DNA of 64,000 bases, from contig NZ_CP022522.1 in NCBI RefSeq assembly GCF_002850255.1, forward strand, positions 376,097 through 440,096. Reading direction: 5' to 3'. A program made the position numbers and the translations under genes. Below, piece by piece: positions 815 through 2,398 of this stretch (the first letter of the stretch is position 1; the number at the start of each line of letters is the position of its first letter). The stretch is from Pseudoalteromonas sp. NC201 (GTDB lineage: Bacteria; Pseudomonadota; Gammaproteobacteria; Enterobacterales; Alteromonadaceae). The notes beneath the pieces are model-generated. The model ran no database searches, was not told the origin of the DNA, and saw only the letters and a program-made list of their open reading frames with translations.

Positions 815-854
815 TCCCCCACAGCATCAGCACAGCGCAACATGGTGGGAGATG

Positions 855-867
855 TATGGACTCCTCC
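855..867 (+). repeat. left sub-terminal inverted repeat of the IS
   Basis: TATGGACTCCTCC. It is a perfect 13-bp inverted match to GGAGGAGTCCATA at 2237-2249. About three bases lie between it and the REP head on the left. Confidence 0.9.
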
Positions 868-920
868 CCCTTAACGGGAGAGTACGGTATAAAGATATTG
901 CAAAACACTTTTACCAAATA

Positions 921-931
921 AGGAGTCCATA
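921..931 (+). promoter_or_regulatory. third copy of the IS terminal repeat overlapping the transposase RBS
   Basis: AGGAGTCCATA matches 11 of the 13 bases of the right inverted repeat, in the same orientation, and ends one base before the start codon. It contains the Shine-Dalgarno sequence AGGAG. A protein that binds the terminal repeats could therefore also bind here, and RNA from the left repeat could pair with it. This role is inference. Confidence 0.5.
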
Positions 932-932
932 C

Positions 933-1964
933 ATGGCACAGTCTAATTTAATTGCTATCGACTTGGCAAAAAACATTTTCCAAGTAGCGCAGCTGAAAGG
1001 CAATAAACTCAAGTTTAATAAGCCAATGAAACGCGAACCTATGTTTGAGTTGCTTGCAAAAGCCGAGGGTTCAAAGGTCGTGATGGAAGCTTGTGGTAGC
1101 GCCCAGCTTATAGCTCGCAAAGCGCTGCCGCTGGGGCATGATGTCATGTTGCTTCCCCCTAAATTTGTTAAAGCGTTTAGGCAAGGCCAAAAAACCGATG
1201 CAAATGATGTTCTCGCCATTGCCAGTGCCAGCCAAGCATATAACGTGAAGCCCTGTAAAATCATGACAGTTGAAGAGCAAACGTTGCAGTCATTGAGCCA
1301 AGCGAGAACCTTAGTAGATAAACAAAAGACTCAGCTTTCAAATCAAATACGTGGATTGCTATTAGAGTTTGGTATTGTTATTAATCAAGGCGATGCTGCG
1401 TTAACACAAGTCGTTCCAGATATTTTAGAAGATGCTGAAAATGCGCTCCCCATCGCATTAAAACAAGCACTCGCGGTGAGTTATGACCTATATAAAACAC
1501 AATGCGACGCTAAAGCACAGCTACATAAACAAGTTGAAGCGATAACCAAGCAAAATGAGAGCTGCCAGCGTTTAATGGCATTAGAAGGTGTTGGCCCAAT
1601 TACCGCGATAGAGCTGTTATCCTTTTTAGGCAATACCTCACAATTTAGTAATGCCAGAGGGGCGGCGGCATGTGCAGGTGTTACACCGACACAGCACTCA
1701 TCAGGCGGAAAAGCCAAGATAGGCCATATCCCCAAAAGACGAGGCAATACGTTAAGGAAAAACCTGTTTCTCGGTGCAAGAACGGTAGTCAGTAGGCTAA
1801 AACATAAAGAAGCGACCACAGAGAAAGAACGCTGGATAAAAAATCTACTCGCCAAGAAGAGTGTGAAATGTGTTGCCATTGCATTGGCCAACAAAACGGT
1901 TAGAACCGCCTATGCCTTACTTAAAAACGGCTCAACATACGAGCCAAAAATCTTAGCGGTGTAG
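933..1964 (+). CDS. IS110/IS1111-family transposase
   Basis: A 343-residue DEDD-type transposase. The N-terminal RuvC-like domain shows the acidic residues D10 (IAIDLAK), E52 (VVMEACG), D89 and D92 (KTDANDV). The C-terminal Transposase_20 domain contains GVGPITAIELL and the HSSGG/RRGNTLRK region that holds the conserved serine. Length fits the family (~310-400 residues). The ATG at 933 is chosen because AAGGAGT lies just upstream and the family starts with a short tail before the first Asp; an in-frame reading back to 747 would run through the inverted repeat and REP. The ribosome binding site is embedded in a third copy of the terminal repeat (921-931). No frameshift or stop was seen. Confidence 0.93.
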   Translation: MAQSNLIAIDLAKNIFQVAQLKGNKLKFNKPMKREPMFELLAKAEGSKVVMEACGSAQLIARKALPLGHDVMLLPPKFVKAFRQGQKTDANDVLAIASASQAYNVKPCKIMTVEEQTLQSLSQARTLVDKQKTQLSNQIRGLLLEFGIVINQGDAALTQVVPDILEDAENALPIALKQALAVSYDLYKTQCDAKAQLHKQVEAITKQNESCQRLMALEGVGPITAIELLSFLGNTSQFSNARGAAACAGVTPTQHSSGGKAKIGHIPKRRGNTLRKNLFLGARTVVSRLKHKEATTEKERWIKNLLAKKSVKCVAIALANKTVRTAYALLKNGSTYEPKILAV

Positions 1965-2236
1965 CACTGAGTAACAGAAGAACAAATCAAGATAAATAGA
2001 ACGTAAAAGCAGAAAGCATACTGAGATTACCCCCAGTATTGAACAAGCCAAGATAGAGCATTAAGCGGTGAAACCCACCCTTGAGAGCCTGTTAAACCGC
2101 AGGTGTATACAAATACCGCGTGGGAGAGAAGGCACAAGGGCGCGAATACATCAAAGAGGCCGAGGTAGCACCTCATCAAGAGCCCGGATATAAGCACGCA
2201 ATCACACCAATAATGCTAAAAATGGCTTGTACAATT
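1965..2236 (+). ncRNA. candidate guide (seekRNA/bridge-type) RNA in the IS right end
   Basis: The 272 bases between the transposase stop and the right inverted repeat hold no good reading frame but several stems: ATACTG/CAGTAT (2018-2023/2034-2039), a long interrupted stem CCCTTG/CAAGGG (2078-2083/2135-2140) plus GCCT/AGGC (2087-2090/2130-2133), and GAGGT/ACCTC (2162-2166/2170-2174). Inside the long stem is an internal loop capped by GTAT/ATAC. Its 5' strand has TAAACCGC (2093-2100), the reverse complement of the right target flank (2254-2261). Its 3' strand has GTGGGAGA (2120-2127), identical to the left flank (845-852). IS110/IS1111 elements are known to encode such target-guiding RNAs. RNA ends are unknown; the fold is by eye. 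Confidence 0.65.
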
Positions 2237-2249
2237 GGAGGAGTCCATA
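2237..2249 (-). repeat. right sub-terminal inverted repeat of the IS
   Basis: GGAGGAGTCCATA, the perfect inverted partner of 855-867. About three bases lie between it and the right half of the split REP unit. Confidence 0.9.
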
Positions 2250-2398
2250 TAAGGCGGTTTATCCGCAGGCATTCATCCTAAATATTTTATAAAGACACTT
2301 TACTCAGTACATTGAAAACTGTAAATATCGGCGATCCCACTACCTTTTGTGTGAGATCTTCGTTATGATTTTGCTTTTGTTTCACAACTAATTACGAA

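Follow-up and report, generated by a model that had tools for sequence, protein, structure and literature searches.

A Pseudoalteromonas IS1111-type insertion sequence with a putative bispecific guide RNA matching its target and its own ends

Results

An IS1111-type element interrupts a REP-like repeat

The window (the whole stretch of 64,000 nucleotides of Pseudoalteromonas sp. NC201 DNA that was analyzed) carries an intact-looking IS1111-type insertion sequence of the IS110 family, whose features are collected in Table 1. The 343-residue protein matched both Pfam Transposase_20 and DEDD_Tnp_IS110, it matched NCBIfam NF033542 ("IS110 family RNA-guided transposase") above the cutoff, and a Protein Data Bank sequence search with it (E up to 1) returned IS621 and ISCro4 alone. 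It contains GVTPTQHSSG, which is of the G--P----SG type in the form given for that motif in passages of Siddiquee et al. (2024, PMC11187229). The element has the marks of the IS1111 group: a DEDD transposase with an IS110-type C-terminal domain, a long noncoding region downstream of tnp (1965–2236), and subterminal inverted repeats, which are perfect over 13 bp where 11–13 bp is usual. By comparison with an empty site, the extensions beyond the inverted repeats total 7 bp (3+4, 4+3 or 5+2), which departs from the 7 (or 6) bp on the left and 3 bp on the right given for the group. We treat this mismatch as minor, the published figure varying with the assignment of shared bases. Three of the related copies (L006, L020, L021) have deletions within the transposase gene and keep the ends and the guide RNA; they possibly depend on an intact copy.

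The empty site lies at the orthologous position in a relative (genome G028, locus L122), which reads GGTAGGAG directly followed by GTGGTTTATCCGC. The comparison gives a net insert of 1402 bp, for which limits of 851–2252 or 850–2251 are equally valid, AG being common to both junctions; because of the sequence of the empty site, A852 belongs to the element and not to the target. The orthologous site in genome G014 (L121) is 4 bp shorter, GGTAGACGG vs GGTAGGAGGTGG in L122. It could be an excision scar or a REP variant; a pattern search for similarly short REPs gave 13 matches in 5 genomes vs 4 for the reversed pattern.

The element's own 5.38-Mb genome contains three full copies of it along with two remnants of the left end. 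The remnants (L004 and L005, matches of 174 and 28 bp) are without the rest of the element, and that of L005 sits after the REP-like head GTGGGAG. The uninterrupted repeat, searched as the pattern GTRGGAGNNNGTTTAYC, has 35 matches in this genome vs 0 for the reversed pattern. Together with the empty site, these matches confirm the target predicted by the first-pass annotation, a REP head plus hairpin. All 3 full copies occupy the RYG class of REP, with right flanks GCGG, ACGG and GTGG, and this class makes up 5 of the 35 uninterrupted matches (hypergeometric 0.0066 for 3/3, a rough value with matches that are partly clustered). Among the 12 named matches of one genome scan, the closest were two P. 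flavipulchra copies, with best segments 97 and 86% identical.

Table 1. Features of the element and its insertion site (window positions)
Feature	Position	Strand	Basis
Net inserted DNA, IS1111-type element	852–2253	+	Empty site in L122; 3 full copies in own genome
Core AG, left junction	850–851	+	Empty-site comparison
Left subterminal inverted repeat TATGGACTCCTCC	855–867	+	
Third inverted-repeat copy AGGAGTCCATACAT	921–934	+	Hairpin with 852–865; covariation with inverted repeat
DEDD transposase/recombinase, 343 aa	933–1964	+	Pfam, NCBIfam, similarity to IS621 and ISCro4
Putative bridge/seekRNA-type guide RNA, core part as modelled	2071–2200	+	Model R1
Target-binding loop, closed by CCCTTG/CAAGGG and GCCT/AGGC	2078–2140	+	Fold, covariation
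Right-target guide (T1) TAAACCGC	2093–2100	+	Flank match, covariation
Left-target guide (T2) GTGGGAG, same as left flank 845–851; core AG at 2125–2126	2120–2126	+	
Donor-binding loop (predicted)	2142–2199	+	Alignment A3 and fold, compensatory changes
Donor-loop closing stem	2142–2144/2197–2199	+	
Donor guide (D1) ATACATC, complement of left end GATGTAT (851–857)	2146–2152	+	
Donor-loop inner stem GGC/GCC	2158–2160/2182–2184	+	
Donor-loop hairpin GAGGT/ACCTC	2162–2166/2170–2174	+	
Donor guide (D2) ATATAAG, same as right end 2247–2253; core AG at 2193–2194	2188–2194	+	
-35-like box TTGTAC, 17 bp upstream of TA+core	2227–2232	+	TTG spacing in right ends
Right subterminal inverted repeat GGAGGAGTCCATA	2237–2249	+	
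Core AG, right junction	2252–2253	+	Empty-site comparison; core agreement across RNA clusters
Interrupted REP-like target, right part GCGGTTTATCCGC; left part at 842–851	2254–2266	+	

A target-binding loop matches both flanks of the insertion

The putative guide RNA is matched by model R1 at 133.7 bits, with the window copy in the training set of the model. A search of 600–2700 against Rfam matched no family to the RNA; a sub-threshold RsaJ match at 718–768 lies outside the element and was taken as chance. The first-pass annotation had described an internal loop here with one segment for each half of the target, and every coordinate was borne out: TAAACCGC at 2093–2100 is the reverse complement of GCGGTTTA at 2254–2261, and GTGGGAGA occurs at both 2120–2127 and 845–852. 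The 8-nt identity on the left is real, whereas the match to the true target there is only 7 nt (845–851) and ends in the core AG. A fold of 2071–2141 contains both of the outer stems that had been proposed (CCCTTG 2078–2083/CAAGGG 2135–2140 and GCCT 2087–2090/AGGC 2130–2133), and in place of the proposed inner stem GTAT/ATAC it predicts GGTGT 2102–2106/ATACC 2113–2117. This fold has an energy of −27.0 kcal/mol (z −4.3), and 0 of 200 shuffles folded as well; in the free RNA, CCGC of one guide is additionally paired with GTGG of the other. All 8 of the pairs predicted by RNAalifold show compensatory changes (17 sequences). A fold of the whole noncoding region, with its long-range pairs, was left unused, and the family evidence was preferred. 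Loci L030 and L047 (G171) have an insertion of ~22 nt between the two guides of the target loop.

The two 8-nt flank matches are far beyond chance. When random sites in the window were compared with 2078–2140, none of the 20,000 had an 8-nt match on the left together with one on the reverse-complemented right, a single-side match alone occurred at about 0.4% of sites, and the both-side rate was 0.07% when the whole noncoding region (1965–2236) was allowed.

A second loop matches the ends of the element and carries the same core

The guide-RNA loop placed by the first-pass annotation in the 3' noncoding end stands as the target loop, but the guide RNA extends past 2140, a second loop running to about 2200. 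For this donor-binding loop, 6 of the 9 predicted pairs show compensatory changes (alignment A3, 28 sequences). By itself the loop is no better folded than shuffles (z −0.4); fold energy was not used as its support, and helices picked for complementarity were not used as counts.

In a bridge RNA, the two loops should share one core dinucleotide with the DNA junction, and this was found: the core dinucleotide of T2 equals that of D2 in 25 of 28 RNA clusters (80% identity), where swapping gave a mean of 7.8 and a maximum of 17, and the T2 core equals the core of the right DNA junction in 23 of the 28. AG, CG and TG core types are each concordant at the target loop, the donor loop and the DNA junction. 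With a GA core there is one case, in which the loops are concordant and the junction is discordant. In IS5075-type elements (core TT), the target core position was aligned to a gap and scored as a miss.

Guide segments covary with flanks and ends across relatives

Relatives were gathered by DNA, protein and RNA-model searches, and the analysis comprised an RNA alignment of 58 matches from 65 sources and a table of ends and flanks for 56 copies. Each guide was scored against its own partner and against swapped partners, with 20,000 permutations each; relatedness among elements remains in the swaps, and in no test did any permutation reach the observed mean. For the target guides, own and swapped scores were 6.24 vs 4.44 for T1 (right flank, n=54) and 7.83 vs 5.05 for T2 (left flank, n=35); for the donor guides they were 6.11 vs 4.52 for D1 (left end, n=28) and 7.18 vs 5.36 for D2 (right end, n=49). 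The own partner was the best or joint best in 16/54 (T1), 20/35 (T2), 14/28 (D1) and 24/49 (D2) cases. The target-guide signal persists with the ends constant (T1 n=26, T2 n=19). On the whole, then, the loop segments of homologous copies track their flanks, with exceptions, and this covariation supports the first-pass reading of a seekRNA or bridge-RNA architecture, a reading that was incomplete in that a donor loop is also present.

The exceptions are of two kinds. Low swap-test scores were obtained for L038, L041, L079:1501, L081 and L108. Poor right-end matches occur at REPs with other stems in L019 (two), L025, L042 and L045, four loci outside the swap-test set, of which L042 and L045 retain no more of the RNA than its end. 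Some copies with nearly identical RNA occupy other REP types. The poorly matching right ends may be due to tolerance, or to recombination that moved truncated copies. The G056 copies (L019, L040) are closely spaced 3' parts, two of those in L040 lying 31 nt apart; in L019 and L040 the right flanks are repeated REPs, and the RNA is nearly identical to that of the window copy.

Targets vary among the relatives, comprising REP variants, attC-like sites, a CACCTAG-type repeat (L034) and a repeat at IS5075 (L119). The targets of L011, L013, L014, L016 and L017 resemble integron attC sites in their motif, and the flank of L119 (IS5075) is presumably a Tn21-type terminal repeat. Of the 4 RNA substitutions that separate the window copy from the G028 copies, 3 lie inside the target guides.

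Nine of the 65 sources (L109–L116 and L118) had no RNA-model match and are absent from the statistics, and two L099 matches, which duplicate the L079 copies, were left out. The left-end assignments of L035 and L094 (9/12 repeat matches, wrong sequence) were removed before the covariation tests. The RNA alignment excludes truncated or contig-end copies (L019, L022, L025, L040, L042, L045, L046), copies whose right end was not found (L007, L012, L015), further copies from genomes already represented (L103, L106, L107), remnants (L004, L005), the element's own copies met again (L001, L018, L039, L078, L098, L104), and L020, L023, L024 and L026, whose flanks are identical to those of L006, L010, L008 and L009.

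A junction promoter and a third copy of the inverted repeat

TTG stands at the exact 17-bp spacing of Table 1 in 43 of 46 distinct right ends, and in 0–5 of the 46 at 12 other spacings tried. Because the left end of the window element starts with AT after the core, closure of the element circle (2227–2253 joined to 852–853) would create TA-AG-AT as a -10 box, whose positions 3–4 are the core.

The third inverted-repeat copy overlies the ribosome-binding site (AGGAG) of the transposase gene and extends into its start codon. Its hairpin with the left end (921–934/852–865) has a predicted energy of −28.9 kcal/mol (z −4.7). In 20 of 33 distinct leaders, 9 or more of 10 positions match the complement of the element's own repeat, vs 0.17% for shuffled arms; the leaders below this level include the attC-type group, L033 and L119. 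The leader arm scored 9.47 against its own repeat and 8.50 against swapped repeats (0/20,000; 19 leader clusters, 36 elements), and a same-strand control gave 6.74 vs 6.63. Transcripts ending at 960 were folded from two starts: with a start at 852 the energy was −30.1 kcal/mol and the ribosome-binding site was paired with a probability of 0.90, and with a start at 861 the values were −15.4 kcal/mol and 0.68.

These results suggest that the third copy holds back transposase expression until excision. In transcripts read in from outside, it would pair with the left repeat; half of the pairing arm would be missing from circle transcripts that begin near 860. We infer from this an RNA lock at the leader. 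A DNA-binding site at the leader copy would explain the covariation too, and in a by-eye look for wobble as a sign of RNA action, few of the leader mismatches were G-U. We tentatively propose, as a possibility that we rate somewhat below an even chance, a circle-licensed circuit in which the junction promoter and the leader lock act together and the long repeats serve, at least in part, to prevent translation of the recombinase before excision. A circle promoter that spans the core is already known, and the leader lock is the new part. A narrow literature search found no published account of such a ribosome-binding-site lock: "ribosome" and "start codon" do not occur in the passages of Durrant et al. 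(2024, PMC11208160), and the passages of Siddiquee et al. (PMC11187229) have one mention of each, that of "ribosome" concerning a cargo gene.

Discussion

The insertion sequence in the window is very probably an autonomous element of IS1111 type, with a bispecific guide RNA produced from the noncoding region downstream of its gene. Direct observations are its anatomy, its empty site, and the family-wide covariation of the core and all four guide segments. From its sequence, the RNA appears to be a bispecific bridge RNA of the sort predicted for IS1111 elements, a class that overlaps with seekRNA. By analogy with experiments on IS621 and on other IS1111 elements, the RNA would be produced and bound by the recombinase, and the element would pass through a circular intermediate to strand exchange. 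In the excised circle, whose junction would read CATATA-AG-ATGTATGG, ATACATC would pair with the left-end half of this junction and ATATAAG with the right-end half, and the two loops would both specify the core AG as the site of strand exchange by the DEDD recombinase. Since both specify the same AG, insertion should occur in one orientation, just after GTRGGAG.

A narrower reading is that a single loop (2078–2140) guides targeting, that the recombinase reads the ends through the inverted repeats, and that the donor-like matches are incidental. The inverted repeats are indeed strongly conserved, passages of Siddiquee et al. (PMC11187229) describe target-matching segments alone, and an 82-nt form of the RNA was enough for movement of ISEc11. 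We nevertheless consider this reading unlikely: the donor segments covary with the ends at bases that include some outside the inverted repeat, and the donor-loop core changes in step with that of the target loop and that of the DNA junction across the AG, CG and TG types.

Flank matches could also arise through shared ancestry with no guiding role, guides and flanks having been inherited together or a REP having been captured into the noncoding region. Close copies do have both RNA and REP type in common, and the swap tests are uncorrected for descent, but unrelated targets (REP, attC-like, CACCTAG-type and Tn21-type repeat) fit the same RNA positions, the substitutions between the window and G028 copies lie mostly in the target guides, and the core agreement holds across RNA clusters, all of which makes an origin by descent very improbable. 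Since REP and attC targets can both form hairpins, ordinary sequence-specific recognition of REP hairpins by the protein might be envisaged, the RNA then being a structured 3' region. Neither RNA stems nor the transposase alone would account for flanks being tracked base for base, and the noncoding region of ISEc11 is essential, its deletion having stopped both circle formation and transposition according to passages of Siddiquee et al. (PMC11187229); protein recognition of this kind is hardly credible here.

A bispecific guide RNA sets the element beside several known systems. RNA from the noncoding region co-purifies with IS1111 transposases, that of the REP-targeting ISPa11 included (passages of PMC11187229). 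Our element resembles those described there, ISPa11 for example, in its transposase with a downstream noncoding region, its subterminal inverted repeats and its REP target, and it has the seekRNA arrangement of one segment for the top and one for the bottom target strand, the top-strand match lying 5' of the other in a stem-loop. It differs in the donor-matching second loop, which was not found in the passages of Siddiquee et al., in extensions that sum to 7 bp and not 7+3, and in being known from its sequence alone. A junction promoter is known for ISEc11 also (passages of PMC11187229).

For IS621, passages of Durrant et al. (PMC11208160) report a bispecific bridge RNA and a promoter that is re-formed over the core upon circularization. 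Like IS621 (PMC11208160; 8WT6–8WT9), the element described here has a homologous recombinase, two loops that would each pair both strands of target or donor with a common core, and a predicted promoter of this kind at the circle junction. Unlike IS621, it has its RNA downstream of the gene, long inverted repeats and core AG vs CT, and unlike the IS110 type its two target segments are in the IS1111 order, which is the reverse (passages of PMC11187229). Bridge RNAs have been predicted in 93.0% of IS1111 elements, with potential donor-binding nucleotides noted in many of these RNAs and ISPa11 among six drawn examples (passages of Durrant et al., PMC11208160). The RNA in the window is of the same kind; the passages of that paper contain neither this element nor its variously targeted Pseudoalteromonas relatives, and no core or donor statistics for the whole family.

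The kind of RNA is therefore already known, and what is new is this element as a further member and the support that the family-wide donor and core statistics bring to the bispecific reading. The guide RNA of IS1111 elements was presented in two 2024 papers, as a target-seeking RNA in one and a predicted bispecific bridge RNA in the other. Donor segments and a core that change with the element's own ends favor the bispecific reading, and the bases to alter are thereby named. In the Pseudoalteromonas relatives, natural variation has produced a range of targets with little change at the ends, and these elements are of use as compact RNA-guided recombinases. The third inverted-repeat copy points to a possible function of the long repeats that can be tested.

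IS5075/IS4321 share the same RNA frame (L117 and L119) with this element; unlike it, their core is TT and their target, according to the title of a reference, is the terminal repeat of Tn21-family transposons. In IS5075-type elements, with this other core and target, T1 and D2 score 8 (L117 row), and T2 and D1 score a weaker 5 (L119 row).
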